Shown: one piece after another, positions 420 to 12,852 of the stretch
How positions within the stretch are numbered: the stretch's first letter is position 1
How the letters are laid out: each line of letters opens with the position of its first letter
From: Photorhabdus sp. CRCIA-P01
GTDB taxonomy: Bacteria > Pseudomonadota > Gammaproteobacteria > Enterobacterales > Enterobacteriaceae
Length of the DNA stretch: 64,000 nucleotides
Direction of reading: 5' to 3'
NCBI RefSeq assembly: GCF_003545805.1
Contig: NZ_NMQR01000001.1
Location: forward strand, 220,702 to 284,701
Position numbers and translations under genes: made by a program
The notes under the pieces: generated by a model
What the model saw: the letters and a program-made list of their open reading frames with translations, nothing else
What the model was told of the DNA's origin: nothing
Databases searched by the model: none

Positions 420-1382
420 TCAGTCGATTATTCTTACTTTCTTATTAGGTTTGGATTGACGGGCAACAGTCTGTTGATTACAACACCTGTAGACTCCCTC
501 TTGGTAGTCATAACACCAGAGTAACTGGCGAATATCGTCAATACGGTGCGGGCTTTTCCATTCACCTACTCCGTAGATTGCTTCAACAAAACAAAATGGA
601 GTATTAGGATCACGGGTTTTATCTACTTTCCCGGCGGGATATAGCGGCGATATTGCCTGATAACCTGTTATCAGAGGAACTAAATATCCAGAACCGGGTT
701 TAGGAATATATTCCCAATATGCAGGATCACCAATTTCAGGTTGCTTATCATCCTGAACAGGAATAGCCCGCATTTTTATAGTTGAAAAATCAAGCCAGGC
801 ATCAATCATTTCTACCTGAGGATTATCCTGTTTTAATTCCTCGTAGTGTTTAGCTAACAATTCCGAGCGATCTAACAAGGCAAAACCCGGCAGTAAACGA
901 CGCATTAATTTACGGGTTGCCTGTTCTTGTTGCGGAAAAGCAATAACATCCACTTTAGCAATTTCAGTGATAGTACCACCTGCTAGTCTCTGAGTTGGAC
1001 ATATTTCCAGTAAATATTGTTCCAATTCGTTCGCCTCTGCATCACCAGCAATTTCACCAGAACATTCTATTAATAAAGAAACTGTCATATGCATTCGACC
1101 CTCTTCATTAAATGCAGAGGTTTCTGCTTCCTTGGTTAGTGGATTGCGAGTTAAGGTAAAAACCTTATCTCTAATTGGATCAGACTGATGAGCATGCAGT
1201 TGGTGGTTATGACAAATAACGCCACAATTTTCCAATCTTAAGTCGTGGCTTTGTTGTAGCTTACGTGAAAGTGCATGAGTAAAGCCAAGGAAATGGGTAA
1301 TTGCCGGAAAACCATAGGTTAAACCTGCAACTGCATTCGCGTTTTCTACTTTAACATGGCGCAAAACAATCAAATAACTCAT
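420..1382 (-). CDS. csy2: Csy2 (Cas5f) subunit of the type I-F Csy complex
   Basis: Csy2 pairs with Csy1 and holds the 5' handle of the crRNA at the foot of the complex. The 320-residue length suits the family (about 320-330). The N-terminal segment [20 protein letters not shown] and the region with [17 protein letters not shown] are typical of Cas5f. The start codon overlaps the csy1 stop by four bases (ATGA), so translation of the two is coupled. Odd point: positions 707-738 within this gene are identical over 32/32 bases to a spacer of CRISPR array 1 (11335-11366), making it a self-matched protospacer; see findings. The reading frame itself is intact. Confidence 0.95.
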
Positions 1383-2722
1383 AACGGTACCTCTGGTAAT
1401 TCATCCTCAAATTCACGTAGGCGTTTTTTAAACACAGAGGCCCACTCATTACGTTCAGTCAATCCAACTTCTAACCGTTCATGGCGCAATTCGTTGTTCA
1501 ACCAGAGACCAAAATCGTCGGCAATTTCTTTTTTCCAGTCTCCACTTTCACGTTCAAATTTGAATATTTCATCTTGTTGACAACGATAGGGATCAAGCCA
1601 AAGCTGCTGAGAACGTTTTAAATCACAATTCGCACTCCAACCTTTAAATTCAACCTGATTCTGTATGCTAGCGACATAATTAAATAAAATATCGATAATT
1701 TCATCAACATATGCCTGCCGATTCCGCCGGATTTCTTCCGTACGTTTCTGTACCCGAAATAGATATTGTCGCATCAATCTGACAGTACGGTAGGATAACA
1801 GAACAAACTGACTTCGCTGTTCGAAAATAGATCTGTGCCGTTCTGGAAGATTAATATTACTTTGCCAGTTAGGAGCAGAACAAGATAAAAGCCAAACTCG
1901 TCCACCTCGCACACTATTAAGATAAGAAATATTTTGCGGCTTAGTTCCACCCATATTCTGTACAGCCGTATTGGGGTAAATTACTCTAGTTTCAGAATGC
2001 CAACGTTCTTCTTTCTTTGCCTTATTAATTTCTTTCGATGATTCACCAAAACGGGCTTCCGCGATACGCTGATTCATAGCATGAGCCAGAGATGACGAAA
2101 ATAGTGGACTTAATAAATGATACTCAGCACATTCACCATCTACCGGGAAATAAAGTTGCTTTGCTAGTTTATGAGAGGAAAGCGTTTCATCTGACAAAGC
2201 TTGGCGGAATCCATTCACCCAACGTTCAAGTTGCTGTTCATTTTCCGCCAATTCAGCTAATGCTGAATAATCTCCCCGATTTAAACACACCACCAATGAA
2301 TCTTCTTGGTATTCTGTTTGCAATAATTTTGCAATATCCAAAGCCGCAGCATTTCCTACAGCATCTATTGCAGGTTTACTCAAAGCAGTAGTAGAAAGAT
2401 ATTCAATATTTTTTTTTCCATTTTCCGATATTGCAAAAATACTACTACCCTTTGCATCACTATGAGTAAATTTCAGAGCATGTGTTACCAGACTGATCTG
2501 TTTTGCCCGATTTGCAGCAGCATCTAGCCAATTTCTAACTTCATAGCGCTTTTCCAATTCGTTACGCTGTTCATCTAACTTTTGTTTAACTAGCGAAATA
2601 TCTTCCGCAGAGGTTAGTTTTGCCAGTTTCTTTTCAGCCTCTTTATCAAAAGCTTCTAGCTTTGGTTGCTTACGGCTTTCGATATAATCGATAATGAATC
2701 GACTTAACCCATTTTCATTCAT
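1379..2722 (-). CDS. csy1: Csy1 (Cas8f) large subunit of the type I-F Csy complex
   Basis: Csy1 is the I-F large subunit, which in this family recognises the GG/CC PAM and recruits Cas2-3. At 447 residues it is close to the usual size (about 430-450). It is the first csy gene; it overlaps csy2 by four bases. The start ATG at 2720-2722 has AAGAGG just upstream, with rather tight spacing. Upstream lie a hairpin (2764-2791), a 58-codon reading frame (2813-2989) and a promoter (3026-3052), giving a 5' leader of about 300 bases, unusually long for a cas gene. In many I-F loci csy1 follows cas3 directly; here about 1.9 kb of extra DNA separates them. The call rests on position between I-F cas genes, size, and residue composition rather than on a single motif. 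Confidence 0.92.
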
Positions 2723-2812: not shown

Positions 2813-2989
2813 CTACTGGTTAGCAGGACTTTGGCTGATAGCAACAGATACCGTGATTACTTTTTGGATTTGAACAATACCTGACTCCTGATGAAAGTCA
2901 GTTACTGAAGGCAAATATATAAGTAACATGATAACTATACTCAGCAAATTTCTTGCTTTTCCTTGCTTCCTATTCGGATTTCTTTTCAT
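2813..2989 (-). CDS. 58-residue basic single-span membrane peptide upstream of csy1
   Basis: I do not recognise this peptide. It begins MKRNPNRKQGKARN, strongly basic, followed by one hydrophobic stretch (about residues 15-29, LLSIVIMLLIYLPSV) and a polar tail ending in PANQ. The start ATG (2987-2989) has a ribosome-binding site AGGA eight bases upstream, and the frame is the first one downstream of the predicted csy promoter (3026-3052), so any transcript of csy1 from that promoter carries it. The shape (basic N-terminus plus one membrane span) is that of type I toxin peptides or of a small secreted peptide. Because the promoter is the apparent target of the mini-CRISPR guide at 3148-3172, a CreT-like toxin role is possible but inferred. 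Its short length means chance cannot be excluded. Confidence 0.5.
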   Translation of the reverse strand: MKRNPNRKQGKARNLLSIVIMLLIYLPSVTDFHQESGIVQIQKVITVSVAISQSPANQ

Positions 2990-3025
2990 AGCTGTTTTCC
3001 TAAAATGAATGGTCTACAACTACAC

Positions 3026-3052
3026 CTTATACTACACCAGAAAAACAGTCAA
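3026..3052 (-). promoter_or_regulatory. Predicted promoter of the csy operon
   Basis: On the minus strand a -35 box TTGACT (3047-3052) is followed after 15 bases by a -10 box TATAAG (3026-3031), slightly short spacing but otherwise near consensus. Transcription would begin near 3019 and run through the 58-codon frame into csy1. The two bases next to the -35 box on its upstream side (3053-3054) are the CC PAM of the guide-matched site. Confidence 0.6.
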
Positions 3053-3079
3053 CCCATGTCGTTTTAGTCTTTACTAGGT
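3053..3079 (+). promoter_or_regulatory. PAM-flanked target site of the mini-CRISPR guide, next to the csy -35 box
   Basis: The plus strand reads CC (3053-3054, the I-F PAM) followed by a sequence that matches the guide-like sequence at 3148-3170 in 19 of 23 positions (3055-3077). Mismatches fall at guide positions 6, 8, 18 and 20, with more beyond 23; 6 and 18 are positions that do not pair in type I effectors. A Csy complex bound here would cover DNA directly upstream of, and its PAM-reading end would abut, the -35 box of the csy promoter. Partial pairing would favour binding without Cas2-3 cleavage. The match is seen; the repression is inferred from CreR/CreA studies in other subtypes. Confidence 0.75.
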
Positions 3080-3119
3080 ATAAACATATAGCATTTAATT
3101 TTTTAATTGCTTACCGTAT

Positions 3120-3200
3120 GGATACTACTGTGCAAGTAGCTTAGAAACATGTTGCTTTAGTCTTAAGTAGAAACCAACTGCCGGACAGGCAGCGGCGCAC
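3120..3200 (+). CRISPR. One-spacer mini-CRISPR with degenerate I-F repeats (CreR/CreA-like guide RNA gene)
   Basis: Two decayed I-F repeats flank a short guide. Pseudo-repeat 1 (3120-3147) matches 20/28 positions of the array repeat and keeps the full 8-base 5' handle CTTAGAAA (3140-3147). Its hairpin is CTACT-GTGCA-AGTAG against CTGCC-GTACA-GGCAG in the arrays: two base pairs changed on both sides, so the 5-bp stem and 5-base loop survive by compensatory change. Pseudo-repeat 2 (3173-3200) matches 18/28, with the stem CTGCC/GGCAG intact (3178-3192). The guide runs from 3148, about 25 bases, or 30 bases from handle to second stem against 37 in a normal crRNA. Orientation is opposite to the cas genes. 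A candidate own promoter is TTTACT (3070-3075) and TTTAAT (3094-3099), weak. Cas6f processing and Csy loading are inferred. Confidence 0.8.
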
Positions 3201-3215
3201 TCAACTAGGTGCGCC
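3194..3215. repeat. Perfect 7-bp inverted repeat after the mini-CRISPR
   Basis: GGCGCAC (3194-3200) and GTGCGCC (3209-3215) form a perfect GC-rich stem with an 8-base loop. It overlaps the end of pseudo-repeat 2 and the stop codon of the old cas2-3 tail. No U-run follows on either strand. It could end or protect the guide transcript, or mark the 3' end of the ancestral cas2-3 message. Confidence 0.4.
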
Positions 3216-3374
3216 AAATACCCCTAAAAATGGGTGGTAATTCCATACATCCTTATCATATTTATCCCTAAAGCAAATTTCCCCAAAATGTAAGCCAACA
3301 TCCGGCAATTCCATCTCATAAATATCGGCAAAATGCTAGTAAATTGTCTCAGTATCAAGTTCAATCCAGACACT
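3201..3374 (-). pseudogene. Decayed copy of the cas2-3 3' end
   Basis: Read on the minus strand these 58 codons give a peptide clearly homologous to the last 57 residues of the intact Cas2-3 (4607-7897): WIELDTETIY, EMEL, HFGEI and YHPFLGVF are shared. It has a TAG where the intact gene has Gln (next to DTETIY), and its own stop TGA at 3201-3203. Many scattered substitutions distinguish it from the live copy, so the two parted some time ago. Because it abuts the mini-CRISPR and csy1 region, it probably marks where cas2-3 originally ended. The 1.2 kb between it and the live gene end (toxin-antitoxin module and small frames) would then be an insertion. Confidence 0.85.
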
Positions 3375-3941: not shown

Positions 3942-4253
3942 TTAAATCACTTCTCGCTCGGCTAGGTGGTTCAACGGCACCATTCGTTTGTGCAGCACAC
4001 CGAACACTACTAATTGCCACTTATGCACTACGTAATAAATGACATGGCTGGCATAGGGAAAACTCAAAATATCCGTTCCAATATCAGACTTAAACTTGCC
4101 TAAGAAAGGAGTATCGGCAAGCAGGCGAATGGTTTTTCGTAGTTCCAACAGATATTTTTGTGATTGAGCCGTCCCCCATTGTTTCATGGTAAATTGGCGG
4201 ATTTCGATCAGATCTCTTTGGGCATCCTGTGTTAAACGATAGAGGATAGGCAT
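3942..4253 (-). CDS. ParE/RelE-superfamily toxin
   Basis: The 103-residue protein fits the ParE toxins: N-terminal LTQDAQRDLIEIRQFT, then QWGTAQSQKYLLEL, a conserved SFPYASHVIYYVV strand and the C-terminal GVLHKRMVPLNHL signature. ParE members poison DNA gyrase, while RelE members cleave mRNA at the ribosome; the LHKRM..NHL ending favours ParE. The start ATG overlaps the last base of the antitoxin stop codon, so the pair is co-translated. The module lies inside the cas locus between the live cas2-3 and its decayed tail copy, which suggests insertion there. Autoregulation through the palindrome upstream of the antitoxin is likely. Confidence 0.88.
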   Translation of the reverse strand: MPILYRLTQDAQRDLIEIRQFTMKQWGTAQSQKYLLELRKTIRLLADTPFLGKFKSDIGTDILSFPYASHVIYYVVHKWQLVVFGVLHKRMVPLNHLAEREVI

Positions 4254-4513
4254 TAGTCGTATTTACCTGTCTCTAGTTCATCAAAAAACGATTCACCATC
4301 AACTAGGTTGCCTGCTTCAATATCAGCTTTGGCTTGGGTTGCTCGATATTTCAAAAACTGAAGCTTGAGCGCTTCGATGTTTTCATATTCATCCATTGAT
4401 AAAACAACAGCGACCGGCTTGCCGTTCTTATTAATCTGGATTGGGGCACGCTGTGCTCTTAACAACATATCACCAAAGTGAGTTTTAGCTTCATTGGCAG
4501 AAAGTGCATACAT
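4253..4513 (-). CDS. Phd/YefM-type antitoxin
   Basis: The protein has the Phd/YefM N-terminal DNA-binding fold: MYALSANEAKTHFGDML, then APIQINKNGKPVAVVLSMDEYE, and a C-terminal helical tail (FFDELETGKYD) of the kind that wraps the toxin. I place the start at ATG 4511-4513 (86 residues). A longer frame back to a TTG at 4570 would run through the palindromic operator and is unlikely. It is the first gene of the pair, overlapping the toxin by one base. In the family the antitoxin, helped by toxin, represses its own promoter. Confidence 0.88.
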   Translation of the reverse strand: MYALSANEAKTHFGDMLLRAQRAPIQINKNGKPVAVVLSMDEYENIEALKLQFLKYRATQAKADIEAGNLVDGESFFDELETGKYD

Positions 4514-4533
4514 ATTTGTAGTCTCGTAAATAC

Positions 4534-4566
4534 CGTTCGATTCGCTTAATATAATCGAATCGAACG
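4534..4566. promoter_or_regulatory. Palindromic operator of the toxin-antitoxin pair
   Basis: CGTTCGATTCG (4534-4544) and CGAATCGAACG (4556-4566) form a perfect 11-bp inverted repeat around an AT-only core except one C, 21 bases upstream of the antitoxin ATG. Placement fits an operator bound by the Phd-type antitoxin. Promoter elements on the minus strand would overlap it. Confidence 0.65.
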
Positions 4567-4606
4567 ACAATCACCACGATTATTACCTAAAAATACTGCA
4601 TGTTAT

Positions 4607-7600
4607 TCAACCAATTTCTCTAAACACCCCTAAAAACGGGTGATAGCGCCATGCCTCTCCGTCATCTTTTATCCTAAGACGAATCTCACCAAAATGTTGG
4701 CTTACGTTTTTTAACTCCATTTCATAAGTATCAGCCAAATACTGGTAAATTGTCTCCGTATCAAGTTCAATCCAGGCACTCACACCTGGTGCGAACTCTA
4801 ATTCTGGCACATAGTCAAACGCCCCACTTTCTTTTATCCCTACCGAACCGCTGTCCAGAGCCATAAACTTCGCTTCTTCACCTTCTTCTTCAAGCCACAA
4901 ATAATATAATTCGTCAGGTTCTGACTGACGAAACGGTTTATGACGTTGGAGTTCCGCACACCACGAAGCCTGTTCACGCCACCAAAGAGCTGAGCAATAA
5001 CCGTGTTCATTATCAGAGCCACCTTGAAGTTCTTCCCATAAACGTTGATGTTCAAGATCAACCAAATTCTCAAAAGGTGAACTATCTCCAGCATTATCGC
5101 GTTCCTTTATTCTTGGCAATGCGCTGACCAGTTCATATTGATAAGGCTCCAGTAATTCATGTAAATCATGGCTGGTAAGACGATAACTTGTTGATTCAAA
5201 CCCTGGGCGACAATAAGCCGGATGCTCTAAATTAGTCGATGTAAGTGCCTTATAGTTTTTCGCCAGAATATGCAGATTAGGCATCCGTGGCTCTTTTTGC
5301 CGATGGCGTTGAATACGTCCGGCAAGTTGTATCAGAGAGCGCATTGAACTGGGTTCAGCAATGGACCAGTCATAATCATGATCCCTCCCTACTTCTGCTA
5401 CAGAGGTTGCTATTACCACAAAAATATGATGTTTCTCTGGCATCTTCTCTAATGCTTTGCGAATTTCCGTCACTTGCCACAATGACTCTTCATCATATCG
5501 TGTCAACGTTGAATCCAGCCGATGTTCAAGATGAGAACGTATCGCCATAGGATGCTGGCTGTGATAGACACAATAATGAATACGTACATTTTGAGGAGAT
5601 GGTATCTGTAATAACCGCTGTGCAACAGCAACCAATGGATCAATATTTGCCATACGGATTAAACCAATAGAGACGTTTTTACCCGATAAGTGAGTTTGAT
5701 GATGTTCCTCATGTAATTTCAATATAGAGTGATGCATCACTTCGGCGATAGTATTAATAACATTATTAACTTCACAACTTTCAGAAATAATCGGTACAAG
5801 TTCAGCTTTACGCAATGGCACTATTTTTTTAAGCCTGCCAATACGCTTATTAACGAAAATATTATGCTGTTCCTGAAACTGATATGCATTGACCACATCC
5901 TGTTGAGTTGTTTCATATTCATCAAACCAAGCGCAACAGATATTAACCTGAGCACCCGGCTGACCACATGCTAACTGGTAATCTTGGCGTCCAGCCCGAT
6001 AAGCATTGAACAATACCTGAATCAACGCAGGCGGTAATGTGGCTGATGAAAGCAATACCCGCGAACCTAATAACCCGGCCCAGTTCACTAACCTACATAA
6101 AGCCGACAAATCGTTAATATCAAAATCATCGGGTTCATCTAACACCAAATCAGAAGTGAGTAATCTCAGCATAGGTGCAATTTGCTTTCCACCACGAATA
6201 CCCTCAGTGGCGGGAATTAAATGGTCGATGGTCGCTACTAGCACAGGTGCGCTAAGCAGCTTATTAAGTTTATTATCTTTATTTTTACCTTTACGTAGCC
6301 AATGACTCAGACGCCCATCATCTAAGCTGCCGTCATAACTAACATATTGATGCTCTGCAAATAACGCTTCTGCGGACATACTACCTACATCAGGCTCAAG
6401 CTCCTTTTGACGAAGTTGATGTAACTCCTTCACTGCCTGCGAACCAATCAGTACCGCCAGGTCATCTTCTTCCAAATGCAATTTCTTACGTAACGCATCA
6501 CCGGTTTGTAGCGTTAATGTTCTTAACCCTAAGGCGATAGAAAAGCGGCACCCTTGTTTTTCATCAGATAATCCATACATGATGCGTGCATTAGCAAAGG
6601 TTTTACCGCAACCCGTAGAAGCCATGTTAATGCCAAAAAAGCCTTGTTCCACTGAACGCTCACGCAGAGCACATGCAACATCGAACGCTTGATCCTGCCA
6701 GCGATATTTTTCATCTTTGCTGCGTTGTTTAAATCCTTTGTGGCGAGAAATTGCAGGTAGCGTTTTACGGATATGTGGCAAGCTTCTCCCTAGTAATAAA
6801 GCATTCTGCCCAACACCGATATTGTGTTCATCTAACCGCTGCTTGCACTTGCCGGTGGTTCTATCAGTATTAGCAAATACATCATAGCTGATATCCTGCC
6901 AACCCAAAGTTGCAGGCAATGATGAATAATGATGATCGGACAGCATTAAAACCAGCCGAGACATATGGCTAGTGAAACGCTGGTTCAGATCACCATATTG
7001 CAATAATGACGTTGATTGCAGCGCTCTTCGCGCAAATTTTTGGGCTTTCTGACGCCAAGTCTGACTACGGATAGGTGTACCATTTGGGAATGTCCAGACA
7101 TCACGCTTATCCTGATCACTCCAGCCCTCCTTATCCATGTTGATTGAGTTCCACGATGGTTCTAAGTACTTAGTCAACCAATTATCAATGTATTTCAATT
7201 GCGGTTCGTTTGAATAATTACTGTCATAAGAAGGATAAACAGGAAGACGATGATGAGAAAGGATCAACCAAGCGACAGTAGTTGCCAATGGCGATAAGTT
7301 AGCAAAAGGTTTTACATAGGAATCAATACCGTCCTTAACCAAACGGGAAAGTACCTTATCCTCATCACCACAATCAATCTGGCTTAACGAAGTCAGCCAC
7401 TCCTTATCATTTTGCTTATCAACAAATGCCCGAAACAGCCGCAAAGATATCCACTCATGTCGGTACGGTTGGAATCGCCCTTTACCCCGTAAACCTTGCT
7501 GGAATAGCACATTAGCTTTACCAAAATCATGAAATAACCCGGCAATTGCTGCCAGCAAACTAATAGCTTCGACACTGTGCCAATGATTCTCATCCTGACT

Positions 7601-7897
7601 TTTTAGTACATCACGCTGTGTCGTATTCGTGGGTACAACTCCTCGCGAGTTAAAGCGTCGCAAATTCCCGACAATCCATAACAACTCAGTTTGGCCGCCA
7701 CTTTTTATCCAATGGCAAGCAACCGCTGTATTACGACGTGCCGTTTTACGCAATAGCTTACGCAAAGTATTTAAACCTTCCAGTGTGATAGCCGTTTGCC
7801 AAGTTCTATCACCTTTACGTTCAGCGAATTGATCCAAAATTCGGCGGGTTTCTGTTAGTGCTCGTTTGTTGCACTGAGATACTAGGAGAATATTCAT
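4607..7897 (-). CDS. cas3: Cas2-3 fusion: nuclease-helicase of the type I-F system
   Basis: The 1096-residue fusion serves both interference (target DNA unwinding and degradation after Csy recruitment) and spacer acquisition (with Cas1). Order seen: Cas2-like domain (about 1-95), HD nuclease (H123-D124, further His at 215-216), superfamily 2 helicase with Walker A STGCGKT (427-433), motif II DEPD (about 587-590), motif III SAT (618-620), motif V region ATSVAEVGRD (830-839) and motif VI QLAGRIQRHRQ (857-867), then the C-terminal domain ending HPFLGVFREIG. Length is normal for I-F. The start overlaps the cas1 stop by four bases. All key residues are present, so it looks active. A second, decayed copy of its last 57 codons lies at 3201-3374. 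Confidence 0.96.
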   Translation of the reverse strand: MNILLVSQCNKRALTETRRILDQFAERKGDRTWQTAITLEGLNTLRKLLRKTARRNTAVACHWIKSGGQTELLWIVGNLRRFNSRGVVPTNTTQRDVLKSQDENHWHSVEAISLLAAIAGLFHDFGKANVLFQQGLRGKGRFQPYRHEWISLRLFRAFVDKQNDKEWLTSLSQIDCGDEDKVLSRLVKDGIDSYVKPFANLSPLATTVAWLILSHHRLPVYPSYDSNYSNEPQLKYIDNWLTKYLEPSWNSINMDKEGWSDQDKRDVWTFPNGTPIRSQTWRQKAQKFARRALQSTSLLQYGDLNQRFTSHMSRLVLMLSDHHYSSLPATLGWQDISYDVFANTDRTTGKCKQRLDEHNIGVGQNALLLGRSLPHIRKTLPAISRHKGFKQRSKDEKYRWQDQAFDVACALRERSVEQGFFGINMASTGCGKTFANARIMYGLSDEKQGCRFSIALGLRTLTLQTGDALRKKLHLEEDDLAVLIGSQAVKELHQLRQKELEPDVGSMSAEALFAEHQYVSYDGSLDDGRLSHWLRKGKNKDNKLNKLLSAPVLVATIDHLIPATEGIRGGKQIAPMLRLLTSDLVLDEPDDFDINDLSALCRLVNWAGLLGSRVLLSSATLPPALIQVLFNAYRAGRQDYQLACGQPGAQVNICCAWFDEYETTQQDVVNAYQFQEQHNIFVNKRIGRLKKIVPLRKAELVPIISESCEVNNVINTIAEVMHHSILKLHEEHHQTHLSGKNVSIGLIRMANIDPLVAVAQRLLQIPSPQNVRIHYCVYHSQHPMAIRSHLEHRLDSTLTRYDEESLWQVTEIRKALEKMPEKHHIFVVIATSVAEVGRDHDYDWSIAEPSSMRSLIQLAGRIQRHRQKEPRMPNLHILAKNYKALTSTNLEHPAYCRPGFESTSYRLTSHDLHELLEPYQYELVSALPRIKERDNAGDSSPFENLVDLEHQRLWEELQGGSDNEHGYCSALWWREQASWCAELQRHKPFRQSEPDELYYLWLEEEGEEAKFMALDSGSVGIKESGAFDYVPELEFAPGVSAWIELDTETIYQYLADTYEMELKNVSQHFGEIRLRIKDDGEAWRYHPFLGVFREIG

Positions 7898-8874
7898 CGT
7901 GCCACCTGACTCAGTTGTTGAGCAGTTGCTTGCAAGGCATCAATCATGGTGTCCAATGCCTCGGCTTTTTGAAATCCACTAATGCAGCGTTGGCGAAACT
8001 CTTGTTCATCTTCTCCAGCCATTGCCGCAATAAATGCTTGTGGCAATACCAACGCATCTTTAATCAGATCAGCAACATCGAAGACCAGACCGCCACGACG
8101 GGTTTTACCATGTAACACCGCCAGACCATGTGGTAAACCAATGACCCAAGTTGCAACAGCCGCCAATCCGTAAGCCAGATAATTACCGTGATCAAGAAAA
8201 CGGTTTGCCAAATCGACACCACCGCCGCGTTTTGCCCGGACAAAATCGCCGTAACTTACTGCATTAGCAGCTAGTTTGTATAACGCTTTAGTCATCACAG
8301 CTTCTTGTGCCATTAACTCTTTATTATCGCGACAATTTGCAAGATTCTGCTCATAACGTGTAAGTAACGACAATAAACTCTCACGATTAAACATAAAAGA
8401 GTTGTCTCGAAGCATTCGACTACTTAACCAATGCTCACGGATTTGTGCAATGCGAACTTTTTGAAAAGCAATCGCTGCCGCTAATCGTTTTTCATCATCG
8501 AACCAGAAACTCACCCAATCTTGTAAATACTCTGTAGGACGATATTCGCTTTGTGGTGTCAACCAAGACACATCAATTTCAACCTCATTAGCCGCAAATA
8601 GCGGTGTACCACCACCGCCACAAAAACCGACTAAAACACCCGCCTTAGCGAATTCACGCATTGCTGCCTGAGTAATAGAAGTACCCGTTCCCAACATGAT
8701 AACGGTGGTATTTGCAATTGGGATATTCCAATACAGTGATTGCTTTCCTTCATCAGTGACATATTCCACACGGCCACCATTAACTAATACTCGACAATAT
8801 TGCAGGTAATAAATATTCGAACGTTTGGAATGCAAAATAGTTTTAAGGTCACTCGGAGAAAAGTTGTTATCCAT
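7894..8874 (-). CDS. cas1: Cas1, type I-F integrase for new spacers
   Basis: Cas1 with the Cas2 part of Cas2-3 inserts new spacers at the leader end of an array. The 326 residues have the I-F pattern: N-terminal beta domain with LGTGTSITQAAMREFAKAGV and FCGGGG, and the helical catalytic domain with metal ligands E191, H255 and D266/D269, in the same spacing as the Pseudomonas I-F Cas1 (E190, H254, D265/268). It is the first gene of a two-gene cas1-cas2-3 transcript. A predicted promoter lies 40 bases upstream (8916-8944). Array 1 is read toward it from the right. Confidence 0.96.
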   Translation of the reverse strand: MDNNFSPSDLKTILHSKRSNIYYLQYCRVLVNGGRVEYVTDEGKQSLYWNIPIANTTVIMLGTGTSITQAAMREFAKAGVLVGFCGGGGTPLFAANEVEIDVSWLTPQSEYRPTEYLQDWVSFWFDDEKRLAAAIAFQKVRIAQIREHWLSSRMLRDNSFMFNRESLLSLLTRYEQNLANCRDNKELMAQEAVMTKALYKLAANAVSYGDFVRAKRGGGVDLANRFLDHGNYLAYGLAAVATWVIGLPHGLAVLHGKTRRGGLVFDVADLIKDALVLPQAFIAAMAGEDEQEFRQRCISGFQKAEALDTMIDALQATAQQLSQVAR

Positions 8875-12534: not shown

Positions 12535-12852
12535 ATGGCAATAATATATATAAACCCTAATCAGACCTTTGAAATTTATAATAAAGGCAATATATTAATC
12601 CCTTTCATACACAATGATGCAATTATAAAAAACAATGGCCCAGCACCAGTTAGGCTTGTAAATTACTGGGCACCTCCATCTGGGAATTATAATCAATATA
12701 TTTCTATAGATATCCCGCCCGGAGAAACCAGAACGCTTCCAGCACCTCCTGACCTTATTTACTATTATAAAGTTGAAGCTATCAATCTCAGCAATAACGA
12801 ACCCGCAGAAATTGAATTTATTGTGTTAACATCTGATCCTGATTGGGATTAA
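12535..12852 (+). CDS. Hypothetical 105-residue protein, predicted beta-rich
   Basis: I do not recognise this protein. It begins MAIIYINPNQTFEIYNK, has no signal peptide or membrane span, and is rich in Asn, Pro, Tyr and beta-forming residues, with alternating hydrophobic strands (VRLVNYWAPP, YISIDIPPG, IEFIVLTSDP), suggesting a single beta-sandwich domain. The start has AAGGAAAC about seven bases upstream. Base composition is AT-rich like the island around it and unlike the backbone to the right, which suggests recent gain. Neighbours are a frameshifted gene and an IS remnant, so no operon context helps. Confidence 0.75.
   Translation: MAIIYINPNQTFEIYNKGNILIPFIHNDAIIKNNGPAPVRLVNYWAPPSGNYNQYISIDIPPGETRTLPAPPDLIYYYKVEAINLSNNEPAEIEFIVLTSDPDWD

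Follow-up and report, generated by a model that had tools for sequence, protein, structure and literature searches.

A miniature CRISPR between cas3 and csy1 of a Photorhabdus type I-F locus may guide the Csy complex to a predicted promoter ahead of its own genes

What is the function of a miniature CRISPR that lies between cas3 and csy1 of a type I-F locus and whose single guide partly matches DNA in the same gap? The question is raised by the Photorhabdus DNA studied here (the window, by which we mean the whole 64,000-nucleotide stretch that was analysed), which carries csy2, csy1, cas3 (4607–7897) and a gene in the place of cas1 (7894–8874), all on the minus strand, and a canonical array from about 9079 on; ORFs in the csy3 and csy4 places and a second canonical array lie just outside the window on the same contig (csy3, csy4 and cas1 were assigned by position). 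In the cas3-csy1 gap the plus strand of the window contains two degenerate I-F repeats that flank a 25-nt guide, and the parts of this element and its target are as follows:

3125–3147, plus strand: degenerate repeat 1, a Csy4-type hairpin (CTACT-GTGCA-AGTAG) and the complete 8-nt handle CTTAGAAA (3140–3147)
3148–3172, plus strand: guide, 25 nt, compared with 32 nt for the canonical spacers here
3173–3192, plus strand: degenerate repeat 2, a predicted 20-nt 3′ handle with stem CTGCC/GGCAG (3178–3192)
3194–3215, plus strand: trailer hairpin GGCGCAC...GTGCGCC, overlapping the stop of a cas3 remnant
3053–3077, plus strand: CC PAM (3053–3054) and protospacer (3055–3077), the site of the guide match and of guide-target covariation

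A first-pass annotation, made from the sequence of this DNA, had described two decayed I-F repeats around a guide of about 25 bases, the first with its full handle and two compensatory changes and the second with an exact stem, and all of these are present. The stem of repeat 1 is CTACT/AGTAG (3125–3129 and 3135–3139), which differs from the array's canonical CTGCC/GGCAG by two compensatory pair changes, and that of repeat 2 is the unaltered CTGCC/GGCAG (3178–3182 and 3188–3192) with one change in the loop. The repeat 1 hairpin folds alone, with a z-score (−0.62) that is unremarkable by itself; the fold of 3171–3217, which includes the trailer hairpin, has a z-score of −4.42. Cleavage by Csy4 at both repeats would yield a predicted 53-nt product, 3140–3192, and the guide length of 25 nt assumes the 20-nt 3′ handle. 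A search for a promoter of the guide RNA on its own strand gave no good candidate (best score 6/12). Over 42 bases, repeat 2 and the trailer hairpin share 86% identity with an end of the second canonical array that, judged by orientation, is the trailer end, and because of this resemblance the mini-CRISPR may derive from an array end.

Beside the mini-CRISPR, 174 bp (3201–3374) are left of another cas3 3′ end, with 74% identity to 4607–4780, and since P. heterorhabditis, P. bodei and P. akhurstii have a cas3 3′ end at that place, the window's cas3 and a cargo segment seem to have been swapped in. Genes for a ParE-family toxin and a Phd/YefM-family antitoxin (3942–4253 and 4253–4570) are inserted between cas3 and the remnant. 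Farther away, the ORF at 12535–12852 has a weak PirA-like match (24.4 bits, under the 27-bit cut-off).

The guide matches 3055–3077 at 19 of 23 positions, next to the CC at 3053–3054 (CC is given as the I-F PAM in a paper on an Acinetobacter I-F CreTA, PMC10097628), and its mismatches are at guide positions 6, 8, 18 and 20. The match, its PAM and the position 6 mismatch had all been noted in the first pass, whose count of 14 matches in the first 17 positions should be 15. This site is the best match to the guide among the 127,812 23-mers on both strands of the window, where the runner-up has 16 matches, and the next best among 5720 CC-preceded sites has 14; when the guide was shuffled, 1 in 200,000 shuffles reached 19/23 at any of the gap's 26 CC sites. 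On the strength of this window-wide ranking and the shuffled-guide controls we reject a chance match of guide to target.

What would a Csy complex bound at this site obstruct? The DNA on the PAM side of the protospacer, read toward csy1, contains the following features:

3024–3052, minus strand: predicted sigma-70-type promoter, TTGACT (3052–3047), 17 nt, TAAGGT (3029–3024), with the −35 abutting the PAM
2813–2989, minus strand: conserved 58-codon ORF with a basic N-terminus and a hydrophobic segment, a candidate membrane toxin or alarm protein
1379–2722, minus strand: csy1 (Cas_Csy1, E 4.5e-133), the predicted second gene of the repressed operon
420–1382, minus strand: csy2 (Cas_Csy2, E 1.2e-114), overlapping csy1

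The TTGACT directly abuts the PAM as the first-pass annotation had it, but the simple csy promoter that it proposed has to be corrected, because the conserved 58-codon ORF, which it had missed, stands between the predicted promoter and csy1: the ORF (2989–2813) is the first behind the promoter, and csy1 starts 90 nt past it. The −10-like TAAGGT is weak (3/6), and a generic promoter scan of the window did not list 3024–3052; a TTGA-type −35 abutting the PAM with TANNNT 17 nt further on is kept in the window and in four other Photorhabdus species. The same generic scan predicted no terminator and no promoter in the interval from the small ORF to csy1 in the window, and it placed a terminator-like site inside the ORF (2901–2881). 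A strong hairpin at 2771–2797, which is without a T tract, lies between the ORF and csy1 and is kept in five aligned Photorhabdus loci. Co-transcription of the small ORF with csy1, which the proposal below would require, is not certain because of this stable hairpin and the terminator-like site.

The small ORF has an AGGA upstream and encodes six basic residues ahead of the hydrophobic segment. Its dN/dS is 0.16–0.49 in 10 species pairs, which indicates constraint at the protein level, and small ORFs of two other groups gave 0.20 and 0.23 from one pair each (values for L075/L096 and L078/L096, which were misaligned because of a length difference, that group's pooled value and the second-type ORFs described below were left out; L numbers are those of loci in our survey). 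Homologs of the window ORF are three Photorhabdus hypothetical proteins, and those of the corresponding Pectobacterium ORF are three Pectobacterium hypothetical proteins. Nothing above the curated cut-offs was found when nine of the small proteins were compared with Pfam and seven with NCBIfam, and the 58-aa window protein had no Pfam family even at E 0.5.

A csy1 scan found the same module in P. heterorhabditis, P. bodei, P. akhurstii and P. caribbeanensis, so that 5 of the 16 Photorhabdus loci in the survey, window included, have it and the others are without the entire window-type module; P. australis, whose csy1 is 87% identical, carries another instead. The cas3-csy1 gaps of relatives had been named in the first pass as the place to look for covarying guides and targets, and between the window and these four species the two do change together: guide positions 1, 7 and 9 differ between species, the target changes along with them, and all three are matched in 5/5 loci, while position 8 is matched in 4/5, the window being the mismatched one. 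Loss of complementarity in close relatives, which had been named as a reason to abandon the idea, was looked for in part, and the window and the four named species keep the pairing. In P. bodei and P. caribbeanensis a single additional target base near position 12–13 limits bulge-free pairing to the first 11–12 positions, and in P. heterorhabditis the guide is 6 nt shorter. When the Photorhabdus guides were swapped, some still scored 10/10. Counted as cells that are matched on both sides versus broken, covariation is 18:4 in Photorhabdus, 2:0 in a second group (three loci), 56:18 in a Pectobacterium-centred group, 38:13 and 4:4 in the two groups of one family and 0:1 in one pair; it is uneven across groups, favorable in four and not in two (0:1 and 4:4).

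How widespread such elements are was determined in a survey of 130 csy1 loci, obtained through genus, family and order searches plus named contigs, from which duplicates had been excluded by hand (e.g., L069 and L071, duplicates of L031 and L033). A locus was called module-positive if it had a repeat pair and, within 450 nt, a CC-flanked target with at least 13/15 matches outside guide positions 6, 12 and 18, or alternatively with all ten of positions 1–5 and 7–11 matched and at least 11/15. By this criterion 49 of the 130 loci are positive, compared with 1 of 3060 shuffled guides; L151 and L159, evident mini-CRISPRs that fall below it, and L062, a mini-CRISPR with no target by this criterion, were counted as negative. 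L078 and L097, being identical in guide and target, were counted once among the 47 distinct guide-target pairs. The window's layout recurs in 29 loci, 18 of which have a promoter-like sequence scoring at least 8/12 on the PAM side (9.2% of shuffles do). In 15 loci of one family the mini-CRISPR has the csy1 orientation and the promoter-like pair lies after the protospacer start, with a score of at least 8 in 11 of the 15, a figure without a shuffle control.

The mismatches in the 47 distinct pairs are far from evenly spread. From guide position 1 to 18 they number 0, 1, 0, 0, 1, 27, 1, 3, 2, 4, 1, 35, 5, 11, 18, 14, 6 and 30, so that 92 of 141 cells at positions 6, 12 and 18 are mismatched versus 67 of 705 elsewhere. 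Because the criterion ignores just these positions, an unmasked control was run (at least 14/18 matches), and the 37 pairs that it detected are mismatched at 68 of 111 cells at 6, 12 and 18 versus 38 of 555 elsewhere (p = 5e-36, a value that treats related loci as independent). When the phase of the mask was varied, the five other phases found 3 or 4 pairs each and the 6/12/18 mask found 30. Class 1 effectors flip out every sixth base, and in an I-F3 system Cascade binding was unaffected by a mismatch there (PMC12774636); the observed pattern is what selection for pairing within a Csy complex should leave. The lengths of 41 distinct guides peak at 13–14, 19–20, 25 and 30 nt, with a few of 26–29, 36 and 38 nt, and are non-uniform modulo 6 (p = 4e-5, again with kinship ignored; L168, which lacked a second repeat under a stricter rule, was left out of the 49 for this set), as though guides grew or shrank in steps of roughly one Csy3 subunit.

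These patterns bear on the simplest alternative, that the element is the degenerating end of an old CRISPR array with no present function and its target match the fossil of a self-targeting spacer. The likeness of repeat 2 and the trailer hairpin to the trailer end of the second array is what such a fossil would show, but the compensatory stem changes, the covariation and the mismatches at flipped-out positions in 47 distinct pairs need continuing selection. We reject a fossil array end as the sole explanation because of the covariation and the 6/12/18 pattern, and consider it very improbable that the element is without function.

If the guides are in use, what do they control? The genes behind the targeted promoter regions fall into five classes: csy1 follows directly in 13 of the 49 loci (L129, L131, L133, L136, L139, L145, L146, L148, L161, L164, L165, L167 and L168; no ORF of at least 30 codons was listed between the targeted promoter region and csy1), a small ORF comes first in 23, an ORF of 99–107 codons in 8, 2 have a gap alone (L152 and L155, in which there is no ORF of 90 codons), and 3 are the second-type Photorhabdus loci. 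The ORFs of 99–107 codons (L149, L150, L154, L156, L157, L158, L162 and L172) are all from one family, and the best Pfam hint for their protein, from one member scanned, was NUMOD1, below cut-off. The cas3-csy1 gap is 229–1392 nt in 37 module loci and at most 32 nt in 31 of 48 other loci (it was measured in 85 of the 130, and 12 of the 45 loci without a measurement are module loci). None of the 31 loci where cas3 thus abuts csy1 has a module, and their short gaps suggest that csy1 is read through from cas3 in module-free loci.

Since 13 related loci have csy1 alone behind the promoter, repression of csy would be the function that all these elements share and the small ORF an addition. The small ORFs nonetheless allow a second reading, that the window's element is an addiction module of the CreTA or CrePA kind in which the guide silences a 58-codon membrane toxin, any effect on csy1 is incidental, and loss of Csy leads to poisoning. 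The 23 loci of the small-ORF class, window included, have an ORF of 20–62 codons first, and a hydrophobic segment is encoded in 22 of them despite their differing sequences; the ORF of L128 is not hydrophobic, and this counts against a toxin. C-terminal pieces of the ORF survive in L033, L063 (P. asymbiotica) and L046, where guide, promoter and ORF N-terminus are jointly absent, as might be expected if guide and ORF were antagonists. L063, the second csy1 locus of P. asymbiotica, has the beginning of cas3 fused to the central part of the small ORF, and the bulk of cas3 is absent there along with the mini-CRISPR, the promoter and the N-terminus of the ORF. Among the loci inspected by eye there was no clear case of an intact small ORF without a guide, but L053, with a 39-codon hydrophobic ORF and no recognized guide, is ambiguous and speaks against addiction.

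The second type of Photorhabdus mini-CRISPR occurs at about 4066–4485 in L060, at about 4120–4560 in L061 and in L179 (same genus), with a degenerate copy in L076. It has a guide of about 30 nt with a CC-flanked match 386–396 nt away on the opposite strand, this site is upstream of a different ORF, likewise small and hydrophobic (...VWLNCANISHNELK...FCRY...), and guide and ORF converge. This PAM-flanked match ahead of another small hydrophobic ORF is a further point for addiction, and together with the joint-loss remnants it makes us lean to a toxin reading of the small ORF. The 13 direct-csy1 loci argue that toxin silencing is not the shared function of these elements, and as a full account of the window addiction is in our judgment possible and somewhat less than probable.

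The converse reading is that the guide regulates csy and nothing else of consequence, the small ORF being harmless and encoding either a leader peptide or a membrane protein that is an accessory to the Csy system and co-regulated with it. The direct-csy1 loci fit this well, as does the closeness of the small ORF, which ends 4–104 nt ahead of csy1 in 21 of 23 loci (the distance is 393 in L037 and 188 in L102). The dN/dS of 0.16–0.49 argues for a functional protein over a mere leader, however, and an antagonist better accounts for the three remnants, from which guide and ORF N-terminus are missing together; we regard a harmless small ORF as unlikely.

Comparison with known systems places the window between two of them. 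In CreR, mini-CRISPR guides repress cas promoters in subtypes I-B, I-E and V-A, as given in two reviews (PMC13131331 and PMC12737573), one of which says generally "Type I and Type V-A", and CreR is there described as generally not coupled to a toxin gene. The window guide likewise partly matches the predicted promoter of its own predicted cas operon (in the 13 direct-csy1 relatives csy1 follows at once), and autorepression is predicted from this, but the locus is type I-F, outside the named subtypes, and a small ORF, a candidate toxin gene, is interposed between promoter and csy1. The Acinetobacter I-F CreTA (PMC10097628) shares with the window its place in the cas3-csy1 gap, two degenerate repeats, a short guide with a PAM-flanked (CC) partial match and a divergent mini-ORF behind the target, likenesses that also favor addiction; its guide is 20 nt long with mismatches at 6, 11 and 18. 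Its target, however, lies downstream of the promoter and the window's upstream of the −35, and its toxin CreT acts as an RNA, the amino acids encoded by its 11-codon mini-ORF being irrelevant, whereas the window ORF has 58 codons and protein-level constraint (the comparison is by description, not by sequence). An RNA-type CreT is thus disfavored for the small ORF by its dN/dS. CrePA pairs a protein toxin, CreP, with a crRNA-like CreA, and CreP is typically a KilA-N protein that acts on cell division, according to a review; the window protein would likewise be kept in check by a crRNA-like guide and set free upon inhibition of the Cas effector, but it is short and hydrophobic and has no Pfam match, KilA-N included. 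A literature search found no report of a type I-F CreR or of a CreR/CreTA hybrid, most subscription papers, including the original CreR and CrePA papers, being outside its scope, and a term search of two CreTA papers found neither Photorhabdus nor Pectobacterium.

Taken together, the covariation, the mismatches at 6, 12 and 18, the promoter-like site abutting the PAM and the 13 direct-csy1 loci give strong comparative support to the CreR-like reading of the first-pass annotation; its weak point is that the promoter leads first into the small ORF. Because csy1 follows only after that ORF in the window, the CreTA alternative still stands, and both may hold. We think it likely that this mini I-F CRISPR guides the cell's own Csy to the predicted promoter and represses csy in a CreR-like manner, with the small protein probably repressed alongside. 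The mini-CRISPR RNA would be cut by Csy4 and loaded into the cell's own Csy complex, which with so short and imperfect a guide would bind the target without cleaving it; this is plausible by analogy with subtype I-B, where guides no longer than 24 nt repress but give no interference (PMC10989794). Bound Csy would then repress the predicted promoter, Csy levels would be self-limited and the small protein, if co-transcribed with csy1, would likely be held down too, until canonical crRNAs or anti-CRISPRs occupied Csy and repression was released. The small ORF most likely encodes a membrane-active toxin or an alarm protein set off upon Csy failure; the module would then be a CreR/CreTA hybrid.

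A bolder possibility, in our judgment less likely than not, is that these elements form a widespread RNA-guided self-brake of type I-F systems and that enterobacterial versions of it, among them those of Photorhabdus and Pectobacterium, use a single guide to repress csy together with a small membrane toxin. An anti-CRISPR that disarmed Csy would at once call forth new Csy, and arrest or death would follow if Csy stayed disarmed. The sequences would then be a record of the physics of the complex, with pairing except at every sixth base and guide lengths that change in steps of about six bases, one Csy3 subunit each. If csy is indeed repressed by such guides, RNA-guided cas autorepression extends to type I-F, a subtype much used in work on Csy and anti-CRISPRs, and the 49 natural guide-target pairs are a supply for testing it. 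Direct-csy1 (CreR-like) and small-ORF (CreTA-like) forms side by side would make the transition between a self-regulating guide and an addiction module testable, and the 6/12/18 mismatch rule would be a way to recognize such regulatory guides by sequence alone.
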